The position numbers and the translations under genes were made by a program. Source: Russula earlei (Eukaryota; Basidiomycota; Agaricomycetes; Russulales; Russulaceae). Taken from it: 64,000 nt of DNA. The DNA is taken from contig JAGFNK010000104.1 of assembly GCA_025769875.1 (NCBI GenBank), positions 62,001 through 126,000 on the forward strand, read 5' to 3'. Below, piece after piece: positions 1 through 48,189 of this stretch (its first letter is position 1; every line of letters begins with the position of its first letter). The notes under the pieces are model-generated. The model was not told where the DNA came from and did no database searches. It saw only the letters and a program-made list of their open reading frames with translations.

Positions 1-1386
1 GTGTGGGATCGTCGACTTGGGGTAGAACGATCGGATGGACCTGGTTGCCTGGGCCCGCAATAAGGATATTTTGGACGATCGGTTGCCGAAAGGGAAGAAC
101 ATATGACTCGGGTGGCAACACAGGGAATATGAACCCTCGAGATATCGATCGCGTAGGCTTCAGCCTCGTGGTCATCCGTGGTACAAATGAGGGTGATGTA
201 TTGGAGACCGTGACGTGTTGCGAAAGCACAGATAGCGGGAAAAAATGCTGACACGCGAAGGTCGCCTCTTCCGAATGGATCACAATTGACCCGTCGCATA
301 AGATACATGACCAGTTTGCCGTATTAGTCTGGAAACCCAATCGATCGGTCTGTCAGACCGAGATCCAAGTCATGGCAGTTCACTCACACATTGGATGGCC
401 GTATCTACAAACACATATTCTTCCTTGTTCCAGTCCAATAGCACGTACAGACCGATGCTGTTGAATCGACTTATCCAAACGAATCCTGCTAGTAAGCGTG
501 CTTCTGGATCCAGCAGGAACACATTCATAACGATCCCTAGCGTCTTGAACGATCGCAGGGTGGAGAAAGACGGATTAAGTTGCTCGTCAGAGTCCGACGT
601 CTGTTCTGGGAAGTGGATTTGCATGAGTTCGAATTGCATAACCTTCTCATCATCCCTAGAGAGGCATTCAAAACCGATATAGTCACAAGAAAGTGATTGG
701 GACAAGAATCGGAGACTCACTTTCCCCTCAGGACCTTCGCCATTGTAAAATATACGATCCGTCGTTCAAACTCGACTCGACACTTCCACAGTTCCCATCG
801 TTCTCCAGGGTTCCATTCGGCGATGCCAACATCCCGATGGACGTCCCAGCAAACTACCTTGCCGCTCTTTGTCGCGCAAAGCGTGTAACTTGCGGTGATT
901 GGGGAGAGCCAATCCACCTCTTCGTCTGGAGGCGTCCCGACGACCTTGTACCAGTATTTTGACGTTATTCCCCAACCCGTCGCATCGGAAGACTTTGCAA
1001 TCCCGTTAAGGGCTTCTTCGCCTTTGGGTACAAACGCGTTCAAAGCCGGTCGCGGCGTGCGTGTGAGCCAACCTCGTTCTAGCCGCGCAGCCCGATTCAC
1101 TACTTCGACGAGTTGATCCGTAGAAAGATCGGAAAGACGCTTGAAACCGTAAAGAGGGAGCGCACGGCATCGCCTCAGTAGACTGACGGCCAACTCCCGA
1201 TACACAGGGCGGGTGCGGATCGCGTATCGGAGGTGCTTGCACGTCTGCGGGAGGGCCATCATTGTATAACTGGAGCAGTAAAAAACGGCGACTACGCACT
1301 AATTGAAGAGCATAGATGTCTGCGAGGTCGAGATACTGTGCGATGGAGAGCAAGAGATCATACGGAATATTTTGCAGCGACGACAT
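1..1386 (-). CDS. F-box protein, stand-alone copy 1 (C-terminus beyond the window edge)
   Basis: Coding pieces on the minus strand are 1386-1300, 1244-721, 655-388 and 328-1, giving 402 visible residues with no stop. The start ATG (1384-1386) opens an F-box (MSSLQNIPYDLL...), completed across intron 1 (1299-1245) by TCKHLRY. F-box proteins bind SKP1 and bring substrates to SCF ubiquitin ligases. A blade-like stretch, SGKVVCWDVHRD, near residue 155 suggests a WD40-like or propeller-type substrate domain, though this is weak. Intron 2 is 720-656. Intron 3 is 387-329 and contains an in-frame TGA just after ELP, so it must be removed. Eight further copies or relics in the window share the exon plan. 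The first codons differ from the other copies (MSSL for MPVPSL). The 3' end lies outside the window. Confidence 0.82.
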
Positions 1387-5576: not shown

Positions 5577-5834
5577 ATGGGGGCGTGGAGATTGGATTGT
5601 GATATCACATTGTTTTTGCCTCGGATGCCGTGAATTGTCACGAAGATTGGGTTCTCAACAACCCAATGAATGAATAGATTTGTCATGTTGTCACTCGTCA
5701 CGTGTATTGTGACGGACGCGTTATGATGGTTCGAGAGCTTATTAAGCTTATCTCAAAGGGATGCCGTGAATGAATTGATGGCAGCGAAATATGCTCACAC
5801 GAGTAGCACTCGGCTTGCCTTTGTCTCGTCTCTC
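5577..5834. other. Intergenic, INO1 3' end to BTB gene
   Basis: Short spacer. A small hairpin is possible near 5648-5667 (TTGGGTT and AACCCAA arms). In-frame ATGs at 5766 and 5778 precede the chosen BTB start. Confidence 0.4.
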
Positions 5835-10633: not shown

Positions 10634-12710
10634 TCACTCGTAACAACAAATAAATATCTTCCCCCGTCGCACCGACAATATCACCGCGCCCTGGCTCAGG
10701 TCCATGTCGATCGTCTCCACCTCGTGAAGGTCCGTCCAGCTCCTCCGGAATCGCCAGCGTCCGCACCGTGCCCTCCACCTCGAACGTCCCATCGGGACCA
10801 CCACCACCGCCGATTCCGCTCCGCGCAGCGTGGCCCTCACCCTCCAGCAGCCGCACGTCGGGAAAAGACGCGAACCGGAGGCGCTTCTGCCCGCGCTCGC
10901 ACGGCTCCTCTTCCTCGTCGTCGTCCGCCGCGCGAACGTGTTCCAGCCACACCGCGTGCCCAAAGTCGACCGCGAGCAGGGCCCGCTGCCGAGGCGGACG
11001 GACTCTACCCCGTCCTCCTCCGACACACAGACGGCCTCGAACGGAACGCTCACGTACCACATCCGCATCGTCGCGTCACTCGCGTCCGTCTCGGCGTTCG
11101 ACGCGCTCAGCGGGACCGAGAAGCAATGTTTCGCGAGCACGTACTTCGTCACGTGTGTATGCGGGTGATGTTGCGCGAGAAGCACCACCGTGCAGCTGAG
11201 TCGTGGGATGGAAGGGAGTGTCGGCCACCATTGCCGAATAAAGTGCGCGCTCTCTGGGTACCACAGCTGATCACTCCATGGATTCGGGGGGTTGTTCACG
11301 TCAGTTGGCGGTGTGGGATCTTGGACCTGGGGTAGGACAATGGGATGAACCTGGTTGCATGGGCCCGCAATAAGGACGATCGGTTGCCGAAAGGGAAGAA
11401 CGTTTGACTCGGGTGGCAATACAAGGAATATGAACCCTCGAGATATCGATCGCGCAGGCTTCAGCCTCGTGGTCATCCGTCGTACAAATGAGGGTGATGT
11501 ATTGGAGGCCGTGACGTGTTGCGAAAGCACAGATAGTGGGAAAAAATGCTGACACGCGAAGGTCGCCTCTATGGATCACAATTGAACCATCGCACAGGAT
11601 ACATGACCAGTTCGCCGTATTAGTCTGTGAAACGCAATCGATCGGTCTGTCAGGCCTAGATCCATGGCAGTTCACTCACACATTGGATGGCCGTATCTAC
11701 AAACACATATTCTTCCTTGTTCCAGTCTAATAGCACGTACAGACCGATGCTATTGGAATGACTTATTCACACGAATCCTGCTAGCAAGCGTGCTTCTGGA
11801 TCCAGCAGGAACACATTCATAACGATCCCTAGCATCTTGAACGATCGCAGTATGGAGAAAGACGGATTAAGTTGCTGGTCAGAGTCAGATGAGTGTTGGA
11901 AAGTGGATTTGCATGAGTTCGAATTGCATAACCTTCTCATCATCCCTAGAGAGAGGCATTCAAAAAACGATCCAAGGCATCACAAGACCACTAAAGAAAG
12001 CGAATGAGACAAGAATCGAAGACTCACCTCCCCCTCAGGACCTTCGCCATTGTGAAATATGCGATTCGTCGTTCAAACTCGACTCGACACTTCCACAGTT
12101 CCCATCGTTCTCCATGGTTCCATTCGGCGATGCCAACATCCCGATGGACGTCCCAACAGAATACCTTGCCGCTCTTCGTCGCGAAAAGCAAGCAATCTGC
12201 CGTAAGTGGGGAGAGCCAATCCACCTCTTCGTCTGGAGGCGTCCCGACGACCTTGTACCAGGATTTTGACTTTATTCCCGAGTCGATGGGCTGAATCGTC
12301 CCGTCCAAGGTTTCGGGTTTCTCGCCTTCGGATACAAACGCGTTCACGGCGGGTCGCGGTGTGCGTGTGAGCCAGCCTCGCTCTAGCTGCGTCGCACGAT
12401 TCACCACCTGGACGAGCTCACATTCCACAGACAATGCGGCAAGACGCCGGAATCCGAAAAGCGGGAGCGGACGGCAGCGCCGAAGGAGGCCGGCCGCCAA
12501 CTCCCGATATATCAAGCGACTGCGGATCGCGTAGCGTAGATGCTTGCATGTCTGCGGAAAAGGCAGCTATCGATTTGAACATTACATATCTATGATGCGA
12601 AAACGATAATCACGCATTAGTTGAAGGGCATAGATATCGGCGAGGTCGAGATGTCGTGCGATGGAACGGAGGAGATCACGGGACAAATGTTGCAGTGAGG
12701 GCACGGACAT
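10634..12710 (-). pseudogene. F-box gene, stand-alone copy 2, decayed
   Basis: It follows the family exon plan on the minus strand: exon 1 from ATG 12710 (MSVPSLQHLSRDLL), exon 2 12551-12028, exon 3 11945-11680, exon 4 11624-10634. Three lesions are visible by comparison with intact copies. The intron 1 donor reads ATGCGT where others have GTGCGT. Exon 3 is 266 nt instead of 268, with two bases missing in the segment for IHFPEQTS (about 11905). Exon 4 lacks five bases just after IVIH (about 11570). The sum does not restore the frame. The last 298 codons (11530-10634) are still open and keep the acidic and glycine-rich tail. It is the most diverged full-length copy, so probably older than the others. 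Confidence 0.8.
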
Positions 12711-14359: not shown

Positions 14360-16412
14360 TTACTCGTAACACAAGATAAACATCTTCCCCTGTCGCACCG
14401 ATAATATCACTACACCCTGGCTCTGGTCCATGTTGATCGCATCCACCTCGTGAAGGTCCAGCTCCTCCGGAATCGCCAACGTCCGCACCGTGCCCTCCAT
14501 CTCGAACGTTCCATCGGGACCACCACCTCCGCCGATCCCGCTCCGCACCGTGTGGCCCTCACCCTCTAGCCGCACACCGGGAAACGACACGAACCGGAGA
14601 CGCATCTGCCCGCGTGCGGATGGCTCCTCTTCCTCCTCGTCGTCCGCTCTCCGTACATGTTCCAGCCACACCGCGTGCCCAAAGTCGACCGCGAGTAGAG
14701 GGTGCTGTCGTGGAGGGGCCTCGGTCGTGAGGTCGTCCTCCGTCACCTGGTCCGACACACAGACAACCTCGAACGGAGCGCTCACATACCACATCCGCAT
14801 CGTCGCGTCGCTCCCATCCGTCTCGGCGTTCGACGTGATCAGTGGCACCGAGAAATAATGTTGCGCCAGCACGTACTTCGTCACGGGTGTAAGCAGGTGG
14901 TGTGTGAGAAGCATCACCGAGCAGCTGAGGTGTGGAATAGAGGGTAGCGTCGGCCACCATTGCCGCACAAAGTAGGCACTCTCTGGGTACCACGAGTGAT
15001 AACTCCATGGATTTGGAGGGTGATTCACGTCAGTAGGCGATGCGATGACCGGATGAACCAGGTTGCTTGGTACCGGGATAAAGGCATTATGGACAATCGG
15101 TAGGCGGAAGGGAGGGACGCATGACTCGGGTGGCAACACAGGGAATATGAAACCTCGAGATATCGATCGCGTAGGCTTCAGTCGCGTGGTCATCCGTGGT
15201 ACAAATGAGGGTGATGGATTCGATACGGTGACGTGTTGCGAAAGCACAGATAGGGGAAAAAAATGTTGACACGCGAAGGTCGCCTCTTCCGAATGGATCA
15301 CAATTGAACCATCGCACAGGATACATGCCCACTTTGAGGTATCAGTCTGTGAAATGCGACCGATGAAGATTGTCAGACCGAAATCTATGTCACAAGGCAG
15401 TCCACTCACACACGGGATGGCCGTATCTACAAACACATATTCTTCCTTGTTCCAGTCTAATAGCACATACAGACCGATGCTGTTGAATCGACTTATCCAC
15501 ACAAATCCTGCTAGCAAGCGTGCTTCTGGATCTAGTGTGAACACATTCATAACGACCCCTAGCGTCTTGAACGATCGCAGGGTGGAGAAGGACGGATTAA
15601 GTTGCTCGTCTGAGTCAGATGTCTGCTCTGGGAAGTGGATTTGCATGAGTTCAAACTGCATAACCTTCTCATCATCCCTAGAACGAAGCATTTCAAACTG
15701 AGATAAGACATCACAAGACCACTAATGAAAATGAATGAAGATTCACCTCCCACTCAGGGCCTTCGCCATCGTAAAATATACGATTCGGCGTTCAAGCTCG
15801 ACTCGACACTTCCACAACTCCCATGGTTCTCCATGGCTCCATTCGGCGATGCCCACGTCCCGATGTACGTCCCAGCAGACCACCTTGCCGCTCTTCGTCG
15901 CGCAAATCGTGTAACCTGTCGTGATTGGGGAAAGCCAATCTACCTCTTCGTCTGGAGGCGTCCTGGCGATCTTGTGCCAGTATTTACCCCTCGCATCGGA
16001 AGACTTTGCAATCCCGTCAATGGTTTCTTCGCCTTTGGGTACAAACGCGTTCAACGCCGGTCGCGGCGTGCGTGTGACCCAACCTCGTTCTAGCCGCGCG
16101 GCATGATTCACTACTTCGACAAGTTGATCCGTAGAAAGATCGGAAATTTGATTGAAACCGTAAAGAGGGAGCGCACGGCATCGCCTAAGTAGGCTGGCCG
16201 CCAACTCCCGATATACCGGGCGGGTGCGGAGCGCGTATCGGAGGTACTTGCATGTCTGCGGGAGGGCATCGTTGGGGACTGTGCATGACTGGAGTGATGA
16301 AAAAACGACGATTGCGCACTGATTGAAGAGCATAGATTTCTGCGAGGTCGAGATGCTGTGCGATGGAGAGCAAGAGGTCATACGGTACATTTTGTAGCGA
16401 GGGAACTGACAT
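14360..16412 (-). CDS. F-box protein, stand-alone copy 3 (intact)
   Basis: Exons on the minus strand are 16412-16320, 16255-15747, 15677-15410 and 15346-14360, giving 618 aa with all phases consistent. The F-box is at about residues 4-48 (SLQNVPYDLLLSIAQHLDL...TCKYLRYALRTRPVY) and would dock on SKP1. The rest is a long family-specific region: the SGKVVCWDVHRDVGIAEW stretch near 151-168, a serine/acidic patch (PEQTSDSDEQ), a run of glutamates near residue 520 and a glycine-rich turn before the closing IPEELDLHEV...SVRQGKMFILCYE. A WD40-like or propeller fold is possible but not shown. Exon 2 is 15 nt shorter than in copy 1, in frame. It diverges from the BTB-MIF4G-F-box gene at 16882 across a 469-bp region. 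Intron 3 (15409-15347) is 63 nt and open, so retention would add 21 residues. Confidence 0.88.
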
Positions 16413-16881: not shown

Positions 16882-16892
16882 ATGACGACTAA
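16851..16892 (+). promoter_or_regulatory. Upstream ORF overlapping the fusion-gene start
   Basis: ATG at 16851 opens a 13-codon frame (MRGSVSVPSSHDD) ending in TAA at 16890-16892, in another frame and overlapping the main ATG at 16882. The same arrangement, with the uATG exactly 31 nt before the main ATG, occurs at 33999, 43681 and 59232. An overlapping uORF would be expected to lower translation of the main frame. Confidence 0.6.
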
Positions 16893-19800
16893 GACATTGT
16901 CTCCTCCAGAAGTTGGCGGGCATATCGTCCCTTCAACTTCACCCTCAATACTCCAGAGGACGTCACCAGCTACCCAGGAGGCCCCTTACCCCACCGTCGA
17001 GTCTCGGATTGAGGGACAGAATTTCTTGGCGAATGAGCCAAGTGATGGTGGTGCTGGTGATGGTGGATCAACATCTGCCAGCGTGAACGATGCGGACGTG
17101 CGACACAGCAAATACTTCTTCGATGATGGAAATGTCACTTTTCTGGTGCGTGGTCTTGGTGGTGGTGTGCACACTAGATTCATTGCTTGGATGACATGCA
17201 GGTTGACGGCACACTCTTCTGCGTCCACCGATATCTCTTCTCTCGAGGCTCGGAACACTTCTCTGCCCAATTTGCCCAGCTCGAAGCCAGTGACTATGAA
17301 GCCCTCCCTTCGACCATATCACTTGACGACGTTAAATGTAAAGACTTCGAGGCCTTCCTGTCTGTCCTATATTCCGAGTAAGTGTTCTAATCCACTGCTC
17401 ATCAGATTGTTTATCAAGGCGTTTATGCATGCAGAAATTTTGGGGTGGTAGATCTCTCATACGAACAGTGGAAATCTGTACTCCACCTCTCCACCCTTTG
17501 GGCCTTTCCTTCGCTCCGCAAGTGGGCCTTGAGTTATATGACGCCACCCACACCACATGATCAGCTCTTGCTTGCGCGTGCATATTCTGTCAGAGATTGG
17601 GTTGTTCCTGTTTTGTCAGTGCTGTGCCAACGGAGAGCGCCTCTTAGCCTGGACGAGGCAAGCCAGATGAATATCAAGGACGTAGTACTGGTGAACACTG
17701 TGCGGGAAGATATCCGCCATCCTGCGCTTCAAGTTGACGTAGACGAGATCCCACTCCGCGTCGCAGCTGCGCAGGCAAGGATACATGCCGATGCAGCTGA
17801 GGATGTTGCTGTCCCTCCAGCCATCCTGCAGAGAGGTGCTGTCGGACAGTCGCCATTAACCGTGGTCCTGAAACAAGCTTCAAAGAAAGAAGATGATAGT
17901 GAACATGGTGTGAGTGCTGATTCCGTCTTCCGTTTGCGATTCCTGAACCTCTACGAGGAACTCTATTCCCTCCCGCTGCAGGAAGTCAACAGGCCAGACC
18001 CGAGCGACAGGTCTCGTGGCCCTGATGGAAGACAATCATCAACCATGATGTACCTGCTCGGTAGCCCTCGATGGGCATCTGTTGATCGCAATAGCGCCGG
18101 TAGCGGATTCCAGATAGGCCAGTTTTCGACCTCGGCAATGAAGATGTCGAGCGAAGAACGTTTTCTCACCTCCTCCAGACGTTTAACGTCTGTCGGTGGC
18201 GTTTCTCTCGGTAACAGCCTCCTTGCGATTGCAAGGCCAAATAGCCCAAACGATACTGTACATGACTGTACGCCTAGCAAACACAATGCTGACGAACCAG
18301 ACCGCGCAACGATCGTTGGAAGGGCTAGTCCCATAGGTCTGGCTTCTAATGATAGTTTCCACAAGGAGTTTGTTACCCCACTAAAAGCGTCTGCGAATCG
18401 TTGGGTAGCGGCTAGCACACGTCGCAATGGTTTGGGCCTTTACGGCGAGCAGAAGGTCAGGGGATTGCTGAATAAGCTCACTATGGTGCGCTTCGACTCC
18501 ATCTCAGACCAAATCATCACATGGGCGAACAAGTCGGAGAGGGAGAAGGACGGACGAACGTTGAGGCAAGTCATCAACCTCGTTTTCGAGGCGGTCACCG
18601 ATAATGCGACCCTTCCTGAGTTATACGCTCGCCTGTGCCGCAAGATGATGGAACAAATTAGTCACAACATACAAGACGACGGAATTGGGAATGCTGCGGG
18701 CGAGCCACTCGCTGGTGGCCAACTGTTCCGGGAATATCTGTTTAACCGCTGCCAGGAGGGATTCAAGCGTGGGTGGGTCGATAAGGAAACAACTGCTGTC
18801 GCTGCTGCAACAAGGACAACCCAAGTCATGTCCATCAAAAATGCTAAAGTGAAGACCAGGGGCGAAGGGTCTGACCTCTACTCCGAGGATGCTTACGCCG
18901 TGGCCAAATCAAAACGTCGTGGATTGGGTCTCATCCGTTTCATAGGAGAACTCTTCAAACTGCAGATGCTGACAGAACGTATCATAGACTCATGCATCAA
19001 GAAGTTCCTCGGAAGCCCTGGGAACGAGGAGATCGAAGGCCTGTGCGAGCTTTTGACAACAGCCGGCTGTCTCCTCGATGCGCAAAAGTCTCGAGTGGAC
19101 CTCGATGTGTACTTTTTGCGTATGCGAGAGTTGACAAAAAACAAAAGCATCAACGCGCGCATGATGTTTATGCTCCAAGTAAGTACCACAATCCCTTCTG
19201 TTACGTCCCCGTTCAGCACTGCTTGACACGCTTTCTCAGGATGTCATTGGGCTCCGTGAACGAGGATGGATTCCTTCGACGATCATGCCGGTGCCCTCGC
19301 TACAAAATATACCGTATGATCTTTTGCTCTCCATCGTACAGCATCTCGATCTCGCAGATATCTATGCTCTTCAATCAGTGCGTAATCGTTGTTTTTTTAT
19401 CACTCCAGTGATGCACAGTTCCGAATGATGTCCTCCCACAGACATGCAAGTACCTCCGATATGGGATACGCACCCGTCCGGTATATAGGGAGTTGGCGGC
19501 CAGCCTACTTAGGCGATGCCGTGCGCTCCCTCTTTACGGTTTCAATCAAATTTCCGATCTTTCTACGGATCAACTTGTCGAAGTAGTGAATCATGCCGCG
19601 CGGCTAGAACGAGGTTGGCTCACACGCACGCCGCGACCGGCGTTGAACGCGTTTGTACCCAAAGGCGAAGAACCCGTTGACGGGATTGCAATGGGGGGAA
19701 CAAAGCCAAAATGCTGGTACAAGGTTGCCAGGACGCCTCCAGACGAAGAGGTAGATTGGCTCTTCCCAATTACGGCAGGTTACATGATTTGCGCGACGAA

Positions 19801-21367
19801 GAGCGGCAAGGTTGTTTGCTGGGACGTACATCGGGATGTTGGCATCGCCGAATGGAACCATGGAGAACGATGGGAGCTCCTTTGGGCTCGAGTCGAGTTT
19901 GAACGACGAGCCATATATTTTACGACGGCGAAGGTCCTGAGGGGAAGGTGAGTCTTCGATTCTTGTCTCATTCACTTTCTTTAGTGGTCTTGTGATGCCT
20001 TAGATCGGTTTTGAACGCCTCTTTATAGGGATGATGAGAAGGTTATGCAATTCGAACTCATGCAAATCCACTTCCCAGAACAGACATCTGACTCAGACGA
20101 GCAACTTGATCCATATTTCTCCACCCTACGATCGTTCAAGACGCTAGGGATCGTTATGAATGTGTTCACGCTGGATCCAGAAGCACGCTTACTAGTAGGA
20201 TTAATGAGGATAAGTCGATTCAACAGCATCGGTCTGTATGTGCTATTAGACTGGAACAAGGAAGAATATGTGTTTGTAGATACGGCCATCCAATGGGTGA
20301 GCGAACTGCCCTCTGACATAGATTCCGGTCTGACATACTTCATCTGCCGCGTTTCACAGACTAATACGGCGAACTGGTCATGTATAGTGTGCGATGGTTC
20401 AATTGTGATCCATTCGGAAGAGGCGACCTTCGCGTGTCAGCATTTTTTCCCACTATCTGCCCTTTCGCAACACGTCACGGTCTTCAACACATCACCCTCA
20501 TTTGTACCACGGATGACCACGAGGCTGAAGCCTACACGATCGATATCTCGAGGGTTCATATTCCCTGTATTGCCACCCGAGTCAAACGTTCTTCCCTTTC
20601 TGCAACCGATCGTCCATAATATCCTCATTGCGGGCTCGGCCAACCAGATCCATCCGATCGTCGTACCCCAGGTCCAAGATCCCACACCGCCTACTGACGT
20701 GAACAACCTACCAAATCCATGGATTGATCGGCTGTGGTACCCGGAGAGTGCGGGCTGTGTTCGGCAATGGTGGCCGACACTCCCTTCTATCCCACGACTC
20801 CGCAGCTCAGCGGTGCTTTTCTCGCAACGTCACCCGTATACAAACGTGACGAAGTACGTGCTCGCGCAACATTACTTCACGGTGCCGCTGAGCACGTCGA
20901 ACGCCGAGACGGATGCGAGTGACGCGACGATGCGGATGTGGTATGTGAGCGTTCCGTTCGAGGTTGTCTGTGTGTCGGACGAGGTGACGGAGGACGACCT
21001 CACGGCCGATGCCCCTCCACGACAGCGTCCTCTATTCGCGGTCGACTTTGGGCACGCGGTGTGGTTGGAACACGTACGGACAGCGGACGAGGAGGATGAG
21101 GAGCCGTACGAGCGCAGGCAGAAGCGTCTCCGGTTCGTGTCATTTCCCGGTGTGCGGCTGGAGGGCGAAGGCTACGCTGTGTGGAGCGGGATTAGCGGAG
21201 GTGGCGGTCCCGATGGAACGTTCGAGATGGAGGGCACGGTGCGGACGTTGGCGATTCCGGAGGAGCTGGACCTTCACGAGGTGAATGAGATCAACCTGGA
21301 CCAGAGCCAGGGTATAGTGATATTGTCGGTGCGACAGGGGAAGATGTTTATTTTGAGTTACGAGTAA
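16882..21367 (+). CDS. BTB - eIF4G/MIF4G - F-box fusion protein, copy 1 (intact, 1367 aa)
   Basis: Exons are 16882-17145, 17202-17377, 17435-19178, 19240-19377, 19442-19947, 20029-20296 and 20360-21367; the phases close exactly. Residues about 78-240 are BTB/POZ (YFFDDGNVTFL, VDGTLFCVHRYLFSRGSEHF). From about 310 the sequence is eIF4G-like: FRLRFLNLYEEL in the place of the eIF4E-binding motif but with F and N at key positions, then SSEERF and ASANRWVA, then MIF4G at about 487-728 (KVRGLLNKLTMVRFDSISDQ ... LGLIRFIGELFKLQMLTERI). The intron at 19179-19239 splits MLQ from DVIGLRERGWIPSTI, which is continuous in eIF4G, and the F-box MPVPSLQNIPYDLLL follows in frame at residue 744. BTB usually serves CUL3, F-box SKP1/CUL1, MIF4G eIF4A. 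The combined role is unknown. Two-gene alternative: retention of that intron ends the first half after 15 codons (stop at 19224-19226), with an F-box start at 19285. An overlapping uORF precedes the start. Confidence 0.85.
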
Positions 21368-22706: not shown

Positions 22707-22778
22707 GATTATGAGACCTGCCTGTCTCTGAAAGCTAAATCACTTCCATAAACAGTCAACATTTTGTAACTACGTAAC

Positions 22779-31481: not shown

Positions 31482-33564
31482 TTACTCGTAACTCAAAATA
31501 AACATCTTCCCCTGTCGCACCGACAATATCACTATACCCTGGCTCTGGTCCAGGTTGATCTCATTCACCTCGTGAAGGTCCAGCTCCTCCGGAATCGCCA
31601 ACGTCCGCACCGTGCCCTCCATCTCGAACGTTCCATCGGGACCGCCACCTCCGCCAATCCCGCTCCACACAGCGTAGCCTTCACTCTCCACCCGCACACC
31701 GGGAAACGACACGAACCGGAGACGCTTCTGCCTGCGCTCGTACGGCTCCTCCTCCTCGTCCGCTATCCGCACGTGTTCCAGCCACACCGCGTGCCCAAAG
31801 TCGACAGCGAATAGAGAACGCTGTCGTGGAGGGGAATCGGCCGTGAGGTCGTCCTCCGTCACCTCGTCCGACACACAGACAACCTCGAACGGAACGCTCA
31901 CATACCACATCCGCATCGTCGCGTCACTCGCATCCGTCTCGGCGTTCGATGCGCTCAGTGGCACCGTGAAGTAATGTTGCGCGAGCACGTACTTCGTCAC
32001 GTTTGTATGCGGGTGACGTTGCGAGAAAAGCACGACTGAGCATCTGAGTCGTGGGATAGAAGGGAGTGTCGGCCACCATTGCCGAAGAAAGTCCGCACTC
32101 TTTGGGTACCACAGTCGATCACTCCATGGATTCGGGGGGGTGTTCACGTCAGTAAGCGGTGTGAGATCTGGGACCTGGGGTACGACGATCGGATGGATCT
32201 GGTTGGCTGGGCCCGCAATAAGGATATTATGGACGATCGGTTGCCGAAAGGGAAGAACATTTGACTCGGGTGGCAATACAGGGAATATGAACCCTCGAGA
32301 TATCGATCGCGTAGGCTTCAGCCTCGTGGTCATCCGTGGTACAAATGAGGGTGATGGATTCGATACAGTGACGTGGTGCGAAAGCACAGATAGTGGGAAA
32401 AAATGCTGACATGCGAAGGTCGCCTCTTCCAAATGTATCACAATTGAACCATCGCACAGGATACATGCCCACTTTGACGTATCAGTCTGTGAAACAAACA
32501 CGACCGATGAGTCTATCAGGTCGAAATTCATGTCACATGGCAGTTCACTCACACATTGGATGGCCGTATCTATAAACACATATTCTTCCTTGTTCCAGTC
32601 TAATAGCACATACAGACCGATGCTGTCGGATCGACTTATCCACATTAATCCTGCTAGTAAGCGTGCTTCTGGATCCAGCGTGAACAAGTTCATAACGACC
32701 CCTAGCGTCTTGAACGATCGCAGGGTGGAGAAATATGGATCAAGTTGCTCGTCTGAGTCAGATGTCTGTTCTGGGAAGTGGATTTGCGTGAGTTCGAATT
32801 GCATAACCTTCTCATCATCCCTGGAGAGAGGTAATTCAAAACCGATCAAGGCATCACAAGACCACTAAAGAAAAGTGAATGAGACAAGAATCGAAGACTC
32901 ACCTTCCCCTCAGGACCTTCGCCATCGTAAAATATAAGGTTCGTCGTTCGAACTCAACTTGAGCCCAAAGAAGCTCCCATCTTTCTCCATGGTTCCATTC
33001 GGCGATGCCAACATCCCGATGTACGTCCCAACAAACAACCTTGCCGCTCTTCGTCGCGCAAATCATGTAACCTGCCGTAATTGGGAAGAGCCAATCTACC
33101 TCTTCGTCTGGAGGCGTCCTGGCAACCTTGTACCAGTATTTGGACTTTATTCCCCCGTTGCAATCCCGTCAACGGGTTCTTCGCCTTTGGGTACAAACGC
33201 GTTCAACGCCGGTCGCGGCGTGCGTGTGACCCAACCTCGTTCTAGCCGCGCGGCATGATTCACTACTTCGACAAGTTGATCCGTAGAAAGATCGGAAATA
33301 TGATTGAAACCGTGAAGAGGGAGTGCACGGCATCGCCTAAGTAGGGTGGCCGCCAACTCACGATATACCGGGCGGGTGCGTATCGCGTATCGGAGGAGCT
33401 TGGATGTCTGTGGGAGGGCATCATTCGGAACTGTGCATGACTGGAGTGATGAAAAAATGACAATTACGCACTGATTGAAGAGCATAGATATTTGCGAGAT
33501 CCAGATGGTGTGTGATAGAGAGCAAGATGTCATACGGTATATTTTGTAGGGAGGGAACTGACAT
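31482..33564 (-). pseudogene. F-box gene, stand-alone copy 5, one-base frameshift
   Basis: Exons are 33564-33472, 33407-32903, 32820-32553 and 32486-31482. Exon 2 is 505 nt where the close relative at 36571-37076 has 506. The lost base is in a G run after IAT (five G at about 33155-33159 versus six in the relatives), which puts the rest of exon 2 out of frame. Everything else is open: F-box MSVPSLQNIPYDILL, exon 3 of 268 nt, and the tail ending in MFILSYE. It is the minus-strand partner of the 7-kb unit whose intact version is at 14360-21367. The lesion is a homopolymer length change, so a consensus error is possible; a true base count would make this gene intact. Confidence 0.75.
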
Positions 33565-34029: not shown

Positions 34030-36367
34030 ATGACGACTAAGACATTGTCTCCTCCAGAAGTTGGCGGGCATATCGTCCCTTCAACATTACCCTTAATACT
34101 CCAGACGTCACCAGATATCCAGGAAACTCATCATTCCGCCGTCGAGTCCCGGATGGAGGGAAATAATTCCCTGGCGAATGAGCCAAGTCGTGGTGGTGGT
34201 TCAGCATCTGCCAGCGTGAACGATGCAGCCGTTCGACACAGCAAATACTTCTTCTATGATGGAAATGTCACCTTTTTGGTGCGTGGTCTTGATGGTGGTG
34301 TGCTCACTAGATTCATTGCTTGGATGACATGCAGGTTGACGGCATACTCTTCTGCGTCCATCGATATCTCTTCTCTCGTGGCTCGGAAAACTTCTCTGCC
34401 CAATTTGCCCGGCTCGAAGCCAGTGACTATGAAGCCCTCCCTCCGACCATATCACTTGACGACGTCAAATGCAAAGACTTCGAGGCCTTCCTGTCTGTCC
34501 TATATTCCGAGTAAGTGTTATGATCTACTGTTCATCAGATTATTTATCAAGGCGTTTATGCATACAGAAATTTCGGGGTGGTAGATCTCTCATACGAACA
34601 GTGGAAATCTGTACTCCACCTCTCCACCCTTTGGGCCTTTCCTTCGCTCCGCAAGTGGGCCTTGAGTTATATGATGCCACCAACACCACATGATCAGCTC
34701 TTGCTTGCGCGTGCATATTCTGTCAGAGATTGGGTGGTCCCTGCTTTGTCGGCGCTGTGCCGACGGAGAGCGCCTCTTAGCCTGGACGAGGCAAGCCAGA
34801 TGGATATCAAGGACGTAGTACTGGTGAACACTGTGCGGGAAGATATCCGCCATCCTGCGCTTCAAGTTGACGTAGACGAGATCCCACTCCGCGTCGAAGC
34901 TGCGCAGGCAAGGTTGCATGCCGATGCAGCTGAGGGTGTTGCTGTCCCTCCAGCGATCCTGCAGAGAGGTGCCGTCGGACAGTCGCCATTACCCGTGGTC
35001 CTGAAACAAGCTTCAAAGAAAGAAGACGATAGTGAACATGGTGTGAGTGCTGACTCCGTCTTCCGTTTGCGATTCCTGAACCGCTATAAGGAGGAACCCT
35101 ATACCCTCCCGCTGCCGGAAGTTAACAGGCCAGAACCGAGCGACAAGTCTCGTGGCCCTGATGGAAGACAATCATCAACCATGATGTACCTGCTCGGTAG
35201 CCCTCGATGGGCATCTGTTGATCGCAATAGCGCCAGTAGCAGATTCCAGATAGGCCAGTTTTCGACGTCGGCAATGAAGATGTCGAGTGAAGAACGTTTT
35301 CTCGCCTCCTCCGGACATTTCCCCTCAGTCGGCGGCGTTTCACTCGGTAACAGCCTCCTTGCGATGAATAGTCCAAACGTTGCTGTGCATGACTGTACGC
35401 CCAGCAAGCACAATGCTAACGAATCAGACCGCGCAACGGTCGTTGGAAGAGTCAGTCCCATAGGTCTGGCTTCTAATGATGGTTTCCATAAGGAGCCTGT
35501 TGCCCCACTAAACGCGTCTGCGAATCGTTGGGTGGCGACTAGCACACGTCGCAATGGTTTGGGCCTTTACGGCGAGCAGAAGGTCAGGGGATTGCTGAAT
35601 AAGCTCACTATGGCGCGCTTCGACTCCATCTCAGACCAAATCATCACATGGGCGAACAAGTCGGAGAAGGAGAAGGACGGGCGGACGTTGAGGCAAGTCC
35701 TCGACCTCGTTTTCGAGGCGGGTCATCGATAATGCGACCCTTCCTGAGTTATACGCTCGCCTGTGCCGCAAGATGATGGAACAAATTAGTCACAACATAC
35801 AAGACGACGGAATTAGGAATGCTGCGGGCGAGCCATTCGCTGGTGGCCAACTGTTCCGGGAATATCTGCTTAACCGCTGCCAGGAGGATTTCGAGCGTGG
35901 GTGGGTCGATAAGGAGACAACTGCTGTCGCTGCCACGATAAGGACAACCCAAGTCACGGCCATCAAAAAGGCCAAATTGAAGACCAGAGGTGAAGGGTCT
36001 GACTTCTATTCCGAGGATTCTTACACCGTGGCCAAAACAAAACGTCGTAGATTGGGTCTCATCCATTTCATCGGAGAGCTCTTCAAACTGCAGATGCTGA
36101 CAGAACGTATCATACACTCATGCATCAAGAGGTTCCTCGGAAGCCCTGAAGACGAGGAGATCGAAGGCCTGTGCAAGCTTTTGACAACAGCCGGCTGTCT
36201 CCTCGATACGCAAAAGTCTCGAGTGGACCTCGATGTGTACTTTTTGCGTATGCGAGAGTTGACAAAAAACAAAAGCATCAACGCGCGCATGATGTTTATG
36301 CTCCAAGTAAGTACCACAATTCCTTCTGTTACGTCCCCGTCCAGCACTGCTTGACACGGTTTCTCAG
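34030..36367 (+). pseudogene. BTB - MIF4G half of fusion copy 2, one-base insertion
   Basis: Exons are 34030-34278, 34335-34510 and 34568-36306, with the intron to the F-box exon at 36307-36367. BTB and the eIF4G-like linker are open (YFFYDGNVTFL, VDGILFCVHRYLF, FRLRFLNRYKEE). An extra G at 35720-35722 (GGCGGG for GGCGG) shifts the frame within MIF4G after VLDLVFEA, and a stop follows at 35730-35732. The correct frame resumes and is open to MFMLQ. Without the extra base the frame would run into the F-box half at 36368. Either a recent pseudogene or a consensus error. Confidence 0.75.
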
Positions 36368-36412
36368 GATGTCATTGAGCTCCGTGAACGAGGATGGATT
36401 CCATCGACGATC

Positions 36413-38496
36413 ATGCCGGTGCCCTCGCTACAAAATATACCCTATGATCTTTTGCCCTCGATCGCACAGCATCTCAATCTCGCAGATATCTATGCTCTTC
36501 GATTGGTGCGTAATCGTCGGTTTTCACATCACTCTAGTGATGCACAATTCCGAATGATGCCCTCCCGCAGACATCCAAGCACCTCCGATACGCGATGCGC
36601 ACCCGCCCGGTATATCGTGAGTTGGCGGCCACCCTACTTAGGCGATGCCGTGCACTCCCTCTTCACGGTTTCAATCATATTTCCGATCTTTCTACGGATC
36701 AACTTGTCGACGTAGTGAATCATGCCGCGCAGCTAGAACGAGGTTGGGTCACACGCACGCCGCGACCGGCGTTGAACGCGTTTGTACCCAAAGGCGAAGA
36801 ACCCGTTGACGGAGTTGCAACGGGGGGAATAAAGTCCAAATACTGGTACAAGGTTGCCAGGACGCCTCCAGACGAAGAGGTAAATTGGCTCTTCCCAATT
36901 ACGGCAGGTTACATGATTTGCGCGACGAAGAGCGGCAAGGTTGTTTGTTGGGACGTACATCGGGATGTTGGCATCGCCGAATGGAACCATGGAGAAAGAT
37001 GGGAGCTTCTTTGGGCTCGAGTCGAGTTTGAACGACGAGCCATATATTTTACGACGGCGAAGGTCCTGAGGGGAAGGTGAGTCCTCGATTCTTGTCTCAT
37101 TCACTTTCTTTAGTGGTCTTGTGATGCCTTAGATCGGTTTTGAACGCCTCTCTCTAGGGATGATGAGAAGGTTATGCAATTCGAACTCACGCAAATCCAC
37201 TTCCCAGAACAGACATCTGACTCAGACGAGCAACTTGATCCATATTTCTCCACCCTGCGATCGTTCAAGACGCTAGGGGTCGTTATGAACTTGTTCACGC
37301 TGGATCCAGAAGCACGCTTACTAGCAGGATTAATGTGGATAAGTCGATCCGACAGCATCGGTCTGTATGTGCTATTAGACTGGAACAAGGAAGAATATGT
37401 GTTTATAGATACGGCCATCCAATGTGTGAGTGAACTGCCATGTGACATGGATCTCTGTCTGACATACGTCATCTACCGCGTTTCACAGACTGATACGTTA
37501 AATTTGACATGTATCCTGTGCGATGGTTCAATTGTGATACATTCGGAAGAGGAGTCCTTCGCATGTCAGCATTTTTTCCCACTATCTGTGCTTTCGCACC
37601 ACGTCACTGTGTCTAGTCCATCACCCTCATTTGTACCACGGATGACCACGAGGCTGAAGCCTACGCGATCGATATCTCGAGGGTTCATATTCCCTGTATT
37701 GCCACCCGAGTCAAATGTTCTTCCCTTTCGGCAACCGATCGTCCATAATATCCTTATTGCGGGCCCAGCCAACCAGATCCATCCGATCGTCGTACCCCAG
37801 GTCCCAGATCTCACACCGCTTACTGACGTGAACACCCCCCCGAATCCATGGAGTGATCGGCTGTGGTACCCAGAGAGTGCGGACTTTCTTCGGCAATGGT
37901 GGCCGACACTCCCTTCTATCCCACGACTCAGATGCTCAGTCGTGCTTTTCTCGCAACATCACCCGCATACAAACGTAACTAAGTACGTGCTCGCGCAACA
38001 TTACTTCACGGTGCCGCTGAGCACGTCGAACGCCGAGACGGATGCGAGTGACGCGACGATGCGGATGTGGTATGTGAGCGTTCCGTTCGAGGTTGTCTGT
38101 GTGTCGGACGAGGTGACGGAGGACGACCTCACGGTCGATGCCCCTCCACGACAGCGTCCTCTATTCGCTGTCGACTTTGGGCACGCGGTGTGGCTGGAAC
38201 ACTGGCGGACAGCGGACGAGGAGGATGAGGAGCCGTACGAGCGCAGGCAGAAGCGTCTCCGGTTCGTGTCATTTCCCGGTGTGCGGGTGGAGAGTGAAGG
38301 CTACGCTGTGTGGAGCGGGATTAGCAGAGGTGGCGGTCCCGATGGAACGTTCGAGATGGAGGGCACGGTGCGGACGTTGGCGATTCCGGAGGAGCTGGAC
38401 CTTCACGAGGTGAATGAGATCAACCTGGACCAGAGCCAGGGTATAGTGATATTGTCGGTGCGACAGGGGAAGATGTTTATTTTGAGTTACGAGTAA
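36413..38496 (+). CDS. F-box half of fusion copy 2 (open, 624 aa from its own ATG)
   Basis: Exons are 36413-36505, 36571-37076, 37158-37425 and 37489-38496; the phases close. The first exon really begins at 36368 with DVIELRERGWIPSTI, the eIF4G tail, directly before MPVPSLQNIPYDLLP. The F-box covers residues 5-48 and the long tail ends GKMFILSYE. Because the upstream BTB-MIF4G half is shifted, this half could only be made from its internal ATG or after correction of that shift. Intron 3 (37426-37488) is 63 nt and open. It is very close in sequence to 19285-21367. Confidence 0.78.
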
Positions 38497-43711: not shown

Positions 43712-46073
43712 ATGACGACGACTGAGAGTGTATCTCCTCCTGAAGGTGGAGGGCACATCGTCTTGTTCGTCCCTTCAACATTACCCTTAATACTCCAGAC
43801 GTCACCAGATATCCAGGAAACTCATCATTCCGCCGTCGAGTCCCGGATGGAGGGAAATAATTCCCTGGCGAATGAGCCAAGTCGTGGTGGTGGTTCAGCA
43901 TCTGCCAGCGTGAACGATGCAGGCGTTCGACACAGCAAATACTTCTTCGATGATGGAAATGTCACCTTTTTGGTGCGTGGTCTTGATGGTGGTGTGCTCA
44001 CTAGATTCATTGCTTGGATGACATGCAGGTTGACGGCATACTCTTCTGCGTCCATCGATATCTCTTCTCTCGAGGCTCGGAACACTTCTCTGCCCAATTT
44101 GCCCGGCTCGAAGCCAGTGACTATGAAGCCCTCCCTCCGACCATATCACTTGACGACGTCAAATGCAAAGACTTCGAGGCCTTCCTGTCTGTCCTATATT
44201 CCGAGTAAGTGTTATGATCTACTGTTCAGTCAGATTATTATCAAGGCGTTTATGCATACAGAAATTTCGGAGTGGTAGATCTCTCATACGAACAGTGGAA
44301 ATCTGTACTCCACCTCTCCACCCTTTGGGCCTTTCCTTCGCTCCGCAAGTGGGCCTTGAGTTATATGATGCCACCAACACCACATGATCAGCTCTTGCTT
44401 GCGCGTGCATATTCTGTCAGAGATTGGGTGGTCCCTGCTTTGTCGGCGCTGTGCCGACGGAGAGCGCCTCTTAGCCTGGACGAGGCAAGCCAGATGGATA
44501 TTAAGGACGTAGTACTGGTGAACACTGTGCGGGAAGATATCCGCCATCCTGCGCTTCAAGTTGACGTAGACGAGATCCCACTCCGCGTCGAAGCTGCGCA
44601 GGCAAGGTTGCATGCCGATGCAGCTGAGGGTATTGCTGTCCCTCCAGCCATCCTGCAGAGAGGTGCCGTCGGACAGTCGCCATTACCCGTGGTCCTGAAA
44701 CAAGCTTCAAAGAAAGAAGACGATAGTGAACATGGTGTGAGTGTTGACTCCGTCTTCCGTTTGCGATTTCTGAACCGCTATAAGGAGGAACCCTATACGC
44801 TCTCCGCTGCCGGAAGTTAACAGGCCAGAACCGAGCGACACGTCTCGTGGCCCTGATGGAAGACAATCATCAACCATGATGTACCTGCTCGGTAGCTCTC
44901 GATCGGCATCTGTTGATCGCAATAGTGCCGGTAGCGGATTCCAGATAGGCCAGTTTTCGACGTCGGCAATGAAGATGTCGAGCGAAGAACGTTTTCTCGC
45001 CTCCTCCGGACATTTCCCCTCAGTCGGTGGCGTTTCACTCGGTAACAGCCTCCTTGCGATGGCAAGGCCAAATAGCCCAAACGATACTGTACATGACTGT
45101 ACGCCCAGCAAGCACAATGCTAACGAATCAGACCACGCAACGGTCGTTGGAAGGGCCAGTCCCATAGGTCTGGCTTCTAATAATGGTTTCCATGAGGAGC
45201 CTGTTTCCCCACTAAACGCGTCTGCGAATCGTTGGGTGGCGACTAGCACACGTCGCAATGGTTTGGGCCTTTACGGCAAGCAGAAGGTCAGGGGATTGCT
45301 GAATAAGCTCACTATGGTGCGCTTCGACTCCATCTCAGACCAAATCATCACATGGGCGAACAAGTCGGAGAGGGAGAAGGACGGACGGACGTTGAGGCAA
45401 GTCCTCGACCTCGTTTTCGAGGCGGTCATCGATAATGCGACCCTTCCTGAGTTATACGCTCGCCTGTGCCGCAAGATGATGGAACAAATTAGTCACAACA
45501 TACAAGACGACAGAATTAGGAATGCTGCGGGCGAGCCATTCGCTGGTGGCCAGCTGTTCCGGGAATATCTGGTTAACCGCTGCCAGGAGGATTTCGAGCG
45601 TGGGTGGGTCGATAAGGAGACAACTGCTGTCGCTGCCGCGACAAGGACAACAACCCAAGTCACGGCCATCAAAAAGGCCAAATTGAAGACCAGAGGCGAA
45701 GGGTCTGACTTCTATTCCGAGGATGCTTACGCCGTGGCCAAAGCAAAACGTCGTGGATTGGGTCTCATCCATTTCATTGGAGAGCTCTTCAAACTGCAGA
45801 TGCTGACAGAACGTATCATACACTCATGCATCAAGAAGTTCTTCAAAAGCCCTGAAGACGAGGAGATCGAAAGCCTGTGCAAGCTTTTGACAACAGCCGG
45901 CTGTCTCCTCGATACGCAAAATTCTCGGGCTGACCTCGATGTGTACTTTTCGCGTATGCGAGAGTTAACGGAAAACAAAAGCGTCAACGCGCGCATGACG
46001 TTTATGCTCCAAGTAAGTACCACAATTCCTTCTGTTACGTCCCCGTCCAGCACTGCTTGACACGGTTTCTCAG
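43712..46073 (+). pseudogene. BTB - MIF4G half of fusion copy 3, one-base insertion
   Basis: Exons are 43712-43972, 44029-44204 and 44262-46012, with the intron to the F-box exon at 46013-46073. BTB is open. One extra base near 44800-44802 (TACGCTCTCC for TACCCTCCC in the relative at 35100) shifts the frame in the eIF4G-like linker after EEPYTL, and a stop follows at 44818-44820. The proper frame then runs open from about 44821 to MFMLQ, covering all of MIF4G (KVRGLLNKL ... GELFKLQML). MIF4G has small changes, such as KFFKSPEDEE. Pseudogene, or a sequence error at one base. Confidence 0.75.
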
Positions 46074-46118
46074 GATGTCATTGAGCTCCGTGAACGAGGA
46101 TGGATTCCTTCGACAATC

Positions 46119-48189
46119 ATGCCGGTGCCCTCGCTACAAAATATACCGTATGATCTCTTGCTATCCATCGCACAGCATCTCGATCTCGCAGATATCTATG
46201 CTCTTCAATTGGTGCGTAATCGTCGTTTTTTCATCACTCCAGTGATGCACAGTTCCGAATGGTGCCCTCCCGCAGACAGTGCAAGCACCTCCGATACGCG
46301 ATACGCACCCGCCCGGTATATCGGGAGTTGGTGGCCAGCCTTCTTAGGCGATGCCGTGCGCTCCCTCTTTGCGGTTTCAATCATATTTCCGATCTTTCTA
46401 CGGATCAACTTGTCGAAGTAGTGAATCATGCCGCGCGGCTAGAACGAGGTTGGCTCACACGCACGCCGCGACCGGCGTTGAACGCGTTTGTGCCCAAAGG
46501 CGAAGAACCCGTTGACGGGATTGCAACGGGGGGAATAAAGTCAAAATACTGGTACAAGGTTGCCAGGACGCCTCCAGACGAAGAGGTAGATTACCTCTCC
46601 CCAATCACGGCGGGTTACACGATTTGCGCGACGAAGAGCGGCAAGGTGGTCTGCTGGGACGTACATCGGGATGTTGGCATCGCCGAATGGAGCCATGAAG
46701 AACGATGGGAGTTGTGTAAGAGTCGAGTCGAGTTTGAACGACGAACCATATATTTTACGATGACGAAGGCCCTGAGGGGAAGGTGAGTCTTTAGTGATCT
46801 CGTGATGTCTTATATTGGGCTTGAATGCTTCGTTCCAGGGACGATGATAAGGTTACGCAATTTGAACTCGGGAAAATCCACTTCCCAGAGCAGACATCTG
46901 ACTCAGACGAGCAACTTAATCCGTCTTTCTCCACCCTGCGATCGTTCAAGACGCTAGGGGTCGTTATGAATGTGTTCCTGCTGGAACCAGAAACACGCTT
47001 GCTGGCAGGATTGATGTGGATAAGTCGATTCAACAGCATCGGTCTGTACGTGCTATTGGACTGGAACAAGGAAGAATATGTGTTTGTAGATACGGCTATC
47101 CAATGGGTTAGTGAACTACCATGCGACATGAATTTCGGCCTGATAGCCTGGGACTCATCGGTCGTGTTTGTTTCACAGACTGATTCGTCAAAGTGGGCAT
47201 GTATCCTGTGCGATGGTTCAATTGTGATCCATTCGGAAGAGGCAACCTTGGCGTGTCAACATTTTTTCCCCCTATCCGTGCTTTCGCAACACGTCACTGT
47301 ATCTAATCCATCACCCTCATTTGTACCACGGATGACCACGAGACTGGAGCCTACGCGATCGATATGTCGAGATTTCATATTCTCTGTATTGCCACCCGAG
47401 TCATACGCCTCTCCCTTCCGCCAACCGATCTTCCATAATACCCTTATCTTGGGCACAGACAACCAGATCCCTCCAATCATCGTTCCCCAGGAAGAAGACT
47501 CCACATTGCCTACTCACGTGAACAACCCACCCCATCCATGGAGTTATCAGCTGTGGTACCCAGAATATGTGGACTTTGTTCGGCAATGGTGGCCGACACT
47601 CCCTTCTATCCCACGACTCCGCAGCTCAGCGGTGCTTTTCTCGCAACGTCACCCGCATACAAACGTGACGAAGTACGTGCTCGCGCAACATTACTTCACG
47701 GTGCCGCTGAGCGCGTCGAACGCCGAGACGGATGCGAGTGACGCGACGATGCGGATGTGGTATGTGAGCGTTCCGTTCGAGGTTGTCTGTGTGCCGGAAC
47801 AGGTGATGGACGACGACCTTCCGGCGGAGGCCCCTCCACGACAGCGACCTCTATTCGCGGTCGACTTTGGGCACGCGGTGTGGCTGGAACACGTACGGGC
47901 AGCGGACGAGGAGGAGGAAGAGGATCTGTACGAGCGCGGGCAGATGCGTCTCCGGTTCGTGTCGTTTCCAGGTGTGCGGCTGGAGGGTGAAGGTCACGCT
48001 GTGCAGAGCGGGATTGGCGGAGGTGGTGGTCCCGATGGAACGTTCGAGATGGAGGGCACAGTGCGGACGTTGGCGATTCCGGAGGAGTTAGACCTTCACG
48101 AGGTGGATGCGATCAACCTGGACCAGAGCCAGGGTGTAGTGACATTGTCGGTGCGACAGGGGAAGATGTTTATTTTGTGTTACGAGTAA
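46119..48189 (+). CDS. F-box half of fusion copy 3 (open, shifted splice acceptor)
   Basis: Exons are 46119-46211, 46280-46782, 46839-47106 and 47179-48189, giving 624 aa. The first exon extends back to 46074 with the eIF4G tail DVIELRERGWIPSTI. One base has been inserted right after the usual acceptor of intron 1 (CGCAGACAGTGC where others read CGCAGACATGC or CGCAGACGTGC). With the old acceptor the frame is lost; with the new AG made by the insertion, exon 2 begins at TGC and the frame is kept, lacking only one threonine. The F-box is then IYALQL-CKHLRYAIRTRPVY. Intron 3 (47107-47178) is 72 nt and open. A MITE lies 24 bp after the stop codon. Confidence 0.75.

Follow-up and report, generated by a model that had tools for sequence, protein, structure and literature searches.

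A BTB-MIF4G-F-box chimera in Russula earlei: a multicopy locus with parts related to eIF4G and to a long-tailed F-box family

The DNA analysed here was a window of 64,000 nucleotides from Russula earlei (assembly GCA_025769875.1, contig JAGFNK010000104.1, positions 62,001-126,000, forward strand), whose own coordinates are used throughout. It carries a three-part locus, referred to as copy A, in which a BTB domain, an eIF4G-like stretch with MIF4G and an F-box with a long tail succeed one another in a single frame of seven exons, as the sequence-only reading had proposed. All six introns are of the GT-AG type. The features of copy A are the following.

16882..21367, + strand: BTB-MIF4G-F-box chimera, copy A; seven exons, 1367 aa
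16882-17145, 17202-17377, 17435-19178, 19240-19377, 19442-19947, 20029-20296, 20360-21367, + strand: exons of copy A
17131..17522, + strand: BTB domain (Pfam PF00651, residues 84-176), split by introns 1 and 2
17913..19274, + strand: eIF4G-derived stretch including intron 4; left end approximate
18450..19260, + strand: MIF4G domain (Pfam PF02854, residues 486-735)
19179..19239, + strand: intron 4, homologous to the native eIF4G intron; in-frame stop if retained
19275..19284, + strand: final 10 bases upstream of the F-box ATG, 1-2 mismatches away from the leader sequences of the solo genes S3, s3 and s4 and now read as S-T-I
19285..21367, + strand: F-box part with long tail; the Met at 19285 is the start in public models of sister copies
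19300..19486, + strand: F-box (Pfam PF00646, residues 749-789), split by intron 5

A six-exon model of 1388 aa was dropped, its 63 extra bases (20297-20359) being an intron that differs in length among copies. The model was replaced because removal of this intron restores the frame in copies E, e and F, and a frame break considered as their common lesion was discarded once the intron had been recognised. Pfam scoring was done on the six-exon protein, from whose residues the window coordinates were converted. The three domains exceeded their curated cut-offs: BTB (PF00651) scored 35.1 bits against a cut-off of 20.5, MIF4G (PF02854) 125.9 against 30.8 and the F-box (PF00646) 23.3 against 20.5, with only the F-box-like family PF12937 falling slightly short (24.0 against 24.3). 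The MIF4G domain further matched eIF4G chains in PDB (e.g. 1hu3, 8huj and 2vso). MA3 (PF02847) was absent from the chimera in the Pfam search and is carried by eIF4G proteins P0006 and P0009.

The extent of the eIF4G-derived stretch was set by comparing exon 3 with the native gene at the protein level, where the match starts at query residue 160, and by a DNA alignment with its left cut at 17915. The eIF4E-binding motif of eIF4G follows the pattern YxxxxL plus a hydrophobic residue. Homology does begin in the eIF4E-binding region, as previously read, but the motif itself is lost, native YDRDFLL being aligned to ADSVFRL in the chimera. In the MIF4G domain, copies A, D, E and F retained 69-72 of the 77 reference-invariant columns, compared with 133-140 of the 208 other columns, the reference being 16 proteins (15 eIF4G and the BTB-MIF4G-MA3 protein P0089; P0014 was omitted for pattern mismatch). 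Five invariant columns were lost in common by all four of these chimeras. The W of SANRW, an eIF4A contact in yeast eIF4G, is present in all four.

The same arrangement occurs ten times in the genome, at six places with four probable alleles, and this recurrence ruled out a chance overlap of frames. Part order is identical in the ten copies, the MIF4G and F-box exon matches lie 104-110 bases apart, and the introns of copy A projected on them gave GT-AG in 60 of 60 cases. Five copies are fully open (A 1367, a 1368, E 1355, e 1357 and F 1367 aa; a and e are probable alleles of A and E, and F lies on contig C14), two (D and d) are open in exons 2-7 with the 5' end lost, and three contain frame-breaking indels beyond exon 1 (one in B, two in C and 27 in b, one of the latter in exon 1). 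In B and C these indels fall on the BTB-MIF4G half; the F-box half is annotated whole, which is compatible with separate expression. No C14 allele without copy F was found, the right flank matching only itself and short repeats; the left flank contains a 4.4-kb dispersed repeat. A Pfam search of the whole R. earlei genome returned 36 BTB matches, and an Rfam search of the window gave nothing at gathering thresholds. The other members of the cluster within the window are listed below.

1..1386, - strand: S1, partial, continuing past the window edge; likely canonical F-box orthologue
10637..12710, - strand: solo F-box gene S2, diverged
14363..16412, - strand: S3, a solo F-box gene paired head to head with copy A; ATG-to-ATG distance 469 bases
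31485..33564, - strand: S4, a solo F-box gene paired head to head with copy B
34030..38496, + strand: copy B; single 1-base insertion in exon 3
43712..48189, + strand: copy C; two 1-base insertions, in exon 3 and at the start of exon 5
53740..57906, - strand: copy D; open frame in exons 2-7, exon 1 changed at its 5' end
59263..63703, + strand: copy E; open, 1355 aa

Intron 4, which links MIF4G to the F-box, is shared with the ordinary eIF4G gene in site and phase (phase 0, between FMLQ and DVI), and 47-50 of 60-64 aligned bases are identical to the native intron. Nothing is inserted at this site in the eIF4G proteins P0006 and P0009. Across copies the intron measures 58-64 bases and, in nine of ten (the exception is b), contains a stop in frame close to its 3' end, whereas the native intron of 60 bases is open throughout; the stop accompanies a one-base length change. 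The 45 bases from intron 4 to the F-box ATG (15 codons, below the size needed for a dN/dS test) contain neither stops nor indels in the joining frame in any of the ten copies. Here ELRERGWIPSTIMPVPSLQ is the form in the copies with E, its counterpart in copy A being GLRERGW. The last 10 bases match the leaders of S3, s3 and s4 with 0-2 mismatches, and what lies 5' of them is eIF4G. From these features we infer that intron 4 is spliced and hence that the fused protein is made, which appears likely.

Both the eIF4G and the F-box donors can be traced on the same contig. The native eIF4G gene lies about 46 kb from copy A (L054, at 28.5-33 kb of C104, is part of it), and the pieces of S1 match P0104 of R. 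dissimulans at 88-97%. In the F-box DNA tree the fused F-boxes were separate from S1, S2 and S3, the fork beside S3 being weak, and S4/s4 nested with copy B, a grouping read as probable gene conversion. F-box remnants were also seen near chimera copies. The chimera would have had three linked donors: a gene for a BTB protein, an internal eIF4G segment that runs, intron included, from near the (spoiled) eIF4E-binding motif to the end of MIF4G, and an F-box gene that would have lost its upstream region as this segment landed about 10 bases 5' of its ATG. Multiplication of the chimeric unit in the cluster would have followed; beside it, on the opposite strand, lie solo F-box genes or their remnants. 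Such a three-gene fusion is traceable, since the eIF4G and F-box donors, their joint and the captured intron are legible on one contig. Several copies hold the frame open, and what was once a 5' leader has apparently been turned into codons.

Selection was estimated by a counting method on the six pairs among A, D, E and F, as ratios without a significance test. Whole-frame dN/dS was below 1 in every pair (0.35-0.50), at a copy-to-copy dS of 0.12-0.19 among open frames. The domains gave 0.21-0.54 (BTB), 0.29-0.42 (MIF4G) and 0.11-0.22 (F-box), with looser values in the N-terminal part (0.55-1.14), the linker (0.40-1.21) and the first part of the tail (0.32-0.84). Likewise, gap runs in exons 2-7 were multiples of three in 16 of 16 distinct cases, compared with one of eight in introns, among seven copies picked for openness (A, a, E, e, F, D and d).

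That the locus is a single gene encoding a single protein and assembled from three linked genes is the reading we favour and hold to be somewhat probable. It competes with a division into two genes: one for BTB-MIF4G, closed by a stop within an unspliced intron 4, and one for the F-box protein, whose promoter would lie within the MIF4G exon and whose start would be at 19285. The sister copies are split in this way in public models, where P0210 (BTB-MIF4G, 681 aa, a cluster of five sequences) runs on into intron 4 and stops there, and P0097, P0098 and P0100 begin at the F-box ATG, a pattern that the sequence-only reading had named as counting against itself and that is found here in models. No model identical to copy A was among the public matches listed. 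The in-frame stop in nine of ten copies points the same way, as does the start of solo F-box relatives from other species at about the same Met. Yet the intron was inherited from eIF4G, where its removal is necessary to yield the conserved FMLQDVIELRER, and its stop sits in TTGAC, which resembles a branch site. Furthermore, the sequence found upstream of the solo genes S3, s3 and s4 is lacking from the fused F-boxes, and a homology-led gene builder would probably produce the same split without transcripts; this suggests that public annotation may divide such fusions by homology. Two separate genes are held unlikely.

Both patterns might also come from one locus, with splicing of intron 4 giving the three-part protein, its retention giving BTB-MIF4G, and an internal start possibly adding the F-box alone. 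A short intron of 58-64 bases with a stop near its 3' end, derived from a stopless one of 60, would suit such a switch; the stop is however tied to a one-base length change and may be functionless, and intron-retaining transcripts can be eliminated by nonsense-mediated decay. This case is rather unlikely. Slightly more improbable still is a family of decaying, non-functional chimeras that recombination has generated within a repeat-rich F-box/BTB cluster. Three of ten copies (B, C and b) do have broken frames past exon 1, D and d are without their 5' end, and F-box remnants are close by. Against decay stand five full frames of about 1360 aa at the dS and dN/dS given above, exon gaps that are all in frame among open copies, and the resemblance of many indels of b to read errors, which they probably are.

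The single-gene chimera is new in architecture and known in its parts. The earlier statement that no described protein has this order held in the open-access literature, where none was found, and no protein with all three Pfam families was among the 96 listed after scoring of the best 7999 candidates. A coarse pattern screen for a MIF4G end and an F-box start in one protein was likewise negative for the 314 proteins retrieved among the matches listed. Relatives were drawn from the best 120 of 234 and the best 120 of 130 matches. BTB-MIF4G chimeras without an F-box occur in Russula emetica (P0002) and in metagenomes (P0212 and P0213). Like the chimera they join a related BTB part to an eIF4G fragment with MIF4G, but show no F-box and have different left eIF4G breakpoints; in P0002 the MIF4G domain is still followed by native eIF4G sequence and the W of SANRW is absent, and P0212 and P0213 stop in an apparent intron. 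The third joining, to an F-box, was seen only in R. earlei. In the MIF4G tree, which included P0014, the R. earlei copies formed one clade (100/100), with R. emetica, P0212 and P0213 placed among other rows at mostly weak forks. The BTB tree, from which 6 of 22 chosen database rows were excluded for pattern mismatch, required two changes of label, BTB-only P0265 grouping with P0002 and P0212. BTB-MIF4G may thus have arisen once or several times, both being compatible with the two trees.

Native eIF4G (L054; P0006 and P0009) has the same MIF4G domain and phase-0 intron; in contrast to it, the chimera lacks MA3, the N-terminal part and an intact eIF4E-binding motif, and has gained BTB and F-box. 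The long-tail F-box family of Agaricomycetes (P0104 and relatives) is collinear with the chimera over the F-box and the entire tail, and its members are annotated singly, without BTB or MIF4G. Identity to full-length P0102-P0106 (Lactarius, Lactifluus and other Russula) was 74-76% among the matches listed. BTB is also fused to eIF4G parts in P0309 of Lactarius sanguifluus, where the eIF4G N-terminal part leads and neither MIF4G nor F-box is shown, and in P0089 of Diversispora epigaea (a Glomeromycete), a BTB-BACK-MIF4G-MA3 protein with a weak BACK match and no F-box shown.

The retention of BTB, MIF4G and F-box would be in keeping with a connection of ubiquitin ligases to translation initiation. 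A part in defence against RNA viruses or in incompatibility, as proposed by the sequence-only reading, would be a further conjecture. The putative product is an F-box receptor in which BTB would serve oligomerisation and the MIF4G module would be of the eIF4A type. Its F-box would recruit SKP1/CUL1, the long tail, conserved in the Agaricomycete family, would select substrates, and the BTB part would oligomerise or bind CUL3. MIF4G, deprived of eIF4E-binding motif and MA3, would serve as bait or decoy by holding eIF4A or an initiation complex. Chances are evenly balanced that the fused protein acts as an SCF-type receptor; binding of eIF4A by its MIF4G is a tentative proposal, and the complete mechanism is doubtful. 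If the protein is made, two ubiquitin-ligase adaptor domains flank a translation-initiation domain in a single chain, and it becomes testable whether the turnover of proteins is directly linked to cap-dependent initiation.

A very improbable extension is that the divergent pair of solo F-box gene and chimera forms a selfish or incompatibility element. Part of an essential translation factor, duplicated and turned into a decoy, would poison initiation, and the linked F-box, partly in the same protein, would restrain the poisoning. In Caenorhabditis tropicalis, toxin-antidote elements are reported to derive from fars-3 with KSS F-box antidotes; there too an essential translation gene is linked to a fast-changing F-box cluster, with duplicated and chimeric copies adjoining F-box genes (PMC12680543). 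Toxin and F-box antidote are separate proteins in that account, with poisoning and rescue shown (PMC12680543), whereas in R. earlei no drive is known and the eIF4G piece and the F-box share one frame. If selfish, the R. earlei pair would be a fungal parallel to the fars-3/KSS elements.

The gene was rebuilt as a closed frame of 1367 aa from seven exons with GT-AG introns throughout (window 16882-21367, plus strand; copy A), and the sequence-only reading was correct about its coordinates, its exon number and the position of the intron uniting the MIF4G and F-box parts (intron 4, 19179-19239). The three domains recognized by that reading were all matched by Pfam, in the order BTB, MIF4G, F-box, the input being an earlier six-exon protein with a tail 21 residues longer. 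Frames for Copia-type gag (PF14223) and reverse transcriptase (PF07727) occurred directly downstream of copy A (22770-26530).

The window spans C104:62001-126000 in the 66.6-Mb R. earlei (Russulaceae) assembly. Searches of this assembly with each half as query uncovered ten sites where an F-box exon lies 104-110 bases after a BTB-MIF4G exon:

Contig C104: chimera copies A, B, C, D and E
Contig C14: chimera copy F
Contig C409: chimera copies a and b
Contig C326: chimera copies d and e

C409 and C326 appear to represent a second haplotype of the C104 region, since the order and spacing of their copies match those on C104. Projection of the models onto the ten copies showed a frame open throughout in A, a, E, e and F, while D and d displayed breaks confined to exon 1, the start of which is altered. 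Frame-breaking insertions were found in copies B (one) and C (two), and copy b contained 27 small frame-breaking indels. GT-AG was kept at all six introns in every copy. Among the seven copies chosen for openness (B, b and C excluded), all 16 distinct gap runs of exons 2-7 and one of the eight intron gap runs came in multiples of three; this pattern shows that both halves code, and on its own is not proof of their joining.

The locus most likely encodes one protein, as judged from its junction. The native eIF4G gene shares C104 with the chimera; the part analysed covers 28.5-33 kb, copy A follows about 46 kb further along, and the native gene displays a phase 0 intron at FMLQ|DVI. Intron 4 lies at exactly this site, and 47-50 aligned bases of 60-64 are identical between the two introns. 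Proteins P0006 and P0009 (eIF4G) display a continuous FMLQDV.ELRER without insert at the intron site; the intron is therefore normally removed. Once intron 4 is removed, copy A reads DVIGLRERGWIPSTI, then directly the F-box Met (19285), and the 45 bases between intron 4 and this Met contained neither stop nor indel in any of the ten copies. The eIF4G homology stops at WIP, and the following ten bases resemble the pre-ATG leader of S3, s3 and s4, which are solo F-box genes (0-2 mismatches by copy; S2/s2 differ, and S1/s1 and S4 were unmatched by the search pattern). The fused F-box thus seems to have lost its original upstream region, and three codons of the junction may derive from its leader, the ten-base match being short. 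A one-base frame step inside MIF4G of the only native eIF4G gene found (C104 about 31.3 kb; near 2781-2869 of the extracted stretch L054) is probably a sequencing or assembly error.

Public models of sister copies cut the locus between MIF4G and F-box, as if two separate genes were present, which we regard as unlikely. P0210 terminates FMLQVSSTTIPSVTSSSSTA, i.e. within intron 4, and P0097, P0098 and P0100 begin at the F-box Met; by sequence and contig, P0097 would correspond to copy B, P0098 and P0210 to d, and P0100 to e, and no model identical to copy A occurred among the matches listed. The breaks of copies B and C fall either within the BTB-MIF4G part or at the acceptor of exon 5, and their F-box halves are annotated whole (P0097, P0099), which is compatible with separate expression, the lesions being too few to decide. 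Yet the same split is also expected from a homology-led gene builder, since free-standing F-box relatives start at about the same Met.

The chimeric three-part frame is real, multi-copy and under constraint. Simple counting of dN/dS over the six pairs of copies A, D, E and F, without significance test, gave 0.35-0.50 for the full gene, 0.11-0.22 for the F-box (47 codons), 0.29-0.42 for MIF4G, 0.21-0.54 for BTB, 0.32-0.84 and 0.23-0.47 for two parts of the tail, 0.53-0.80 for the eIF4G stretch ahead of MIF4G, 0.55-1.14 for the N-terminal part and 0.40-1.21 for the linker. The two longer chimera pieces compared with the native eIF4G gene gave 0.24-0.32. Capture of the eIF4G piece probably predates the spread of the copies, since dS between MIF4G-C and the native gene was 0.43-0.49, against 0.12-0.19 between copies over the whole gene. 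These four chimeras retained 69-72 of the 77 MIF4G columns invariant in 16 references (15 eIF4G and P0089), against 133-140 of the 208 other columns; five invariant columns were missing from all four, and the eIF4E-binding motif was not retained.

As far as literature and protein searches reach, this architecture is new. The sequence-only reading knew of no described protein of this order, and none was found here: open-access full-text literature on MIF4G-BTB-F-box architectures, eIF4G-BTB chimeras and fusions contained nothing on it, and none of the 96 proteins listed for a joined query (best 7999 candidates scored) carried all three Pfam families, although such a protein could be hidden where public models are split. 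R. emetica P0002 resembles the R. earlei chimera in its BTB-MIF4G part but is devoid of F-box, as are metagenome proteins P0212 and P0213, whose ends are open. In P0309, from the related genus Lactarius (L. sanguifluus), the joining order is reversed, two eIF4E-binding stretches (PF12152) of eIF4G preceding BTB. P0089 (Diversispora epigaea) is a separate BTB-eIF4G joining, with BTB, MIF4G and MA3 in one predicted protein (BACK match below cut-off).

SKP1/CUL1 receives its substrates through F-box proteins, many BTB proteins form dimers or associate with CUL3, and eIF4G contacts eIF4A through its MIF4G domain. Given these known roles, we infer for function only that the chimera could be a substrate receptor whose MIF4G, without the eIF4E-binding motif, would hold eIF4A or an initiation complex as bait or decoy. 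A precedent for a BTB-initiation link is TaMAB2 (wheat MATH-BTB), for which PMC6883508 reports eIF3 and eIF4 subunits among affinity-purified interactors. A bolder and very improbable reading, that of a selfish element, would draw on a parallel with C. tropicalis fars-3, for which PMC12680543 describes duplicated, partly chimeric translation-gene copies beside F-box genes, and F-box antidotes.

All three donor types occurred on C104: eIF4G at about 30 kb, solo F-box gene S1 at 61321-63386 and a BTB stretch related to the chimera (62%) at 68417. Pieces of S1 are 88-97% identical to P0104, an F-box relative from R. dissimulans, and S1 is likely the canonical F-box orthologue. Other Russulaceae appear to have similar linkage. 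Within each of Lactarius deliciosus, Lactifluus subvellereus, R. dissimulans and R. aff. rugulosa, the F-box and BTB matches come from contigs of equal length and thus probably from one contig; this also applies to the eIF4G and BTB matches of Lactarius psammicola. The R. earlei copies formed a single MIF4G clade (100/100). In the F-box tree, fused members were separate from S1, S2 and S3, and S4 grouped among them, probably through gene conversion. A myo-inositol-1-phosphate synthase frame (window 3931-5037) separates the native eIF4G region from the chimera copies, two of which have a solo F-box neighbour:

14363-16412, minus strand: solo F-box gene, head to head with copy A (start 16882, plus strand), gap 469 bases
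31485-33564, minus strand: solo F-box gene, head to head with copy B (start 34030, plus strand), gap 465 bases

Minus-strand F-box fragments were recorded near other copies (C104:104923, C104:120598, C14:166158 and C326:9704). Beside copy F lies a dispersed repeat of 4.4 kb (C14 about 159.8-164.1 kb; 1765-6124 of stretch L063); the matches listed include at least seven further copies of nearly full length, at 93-97% identity.
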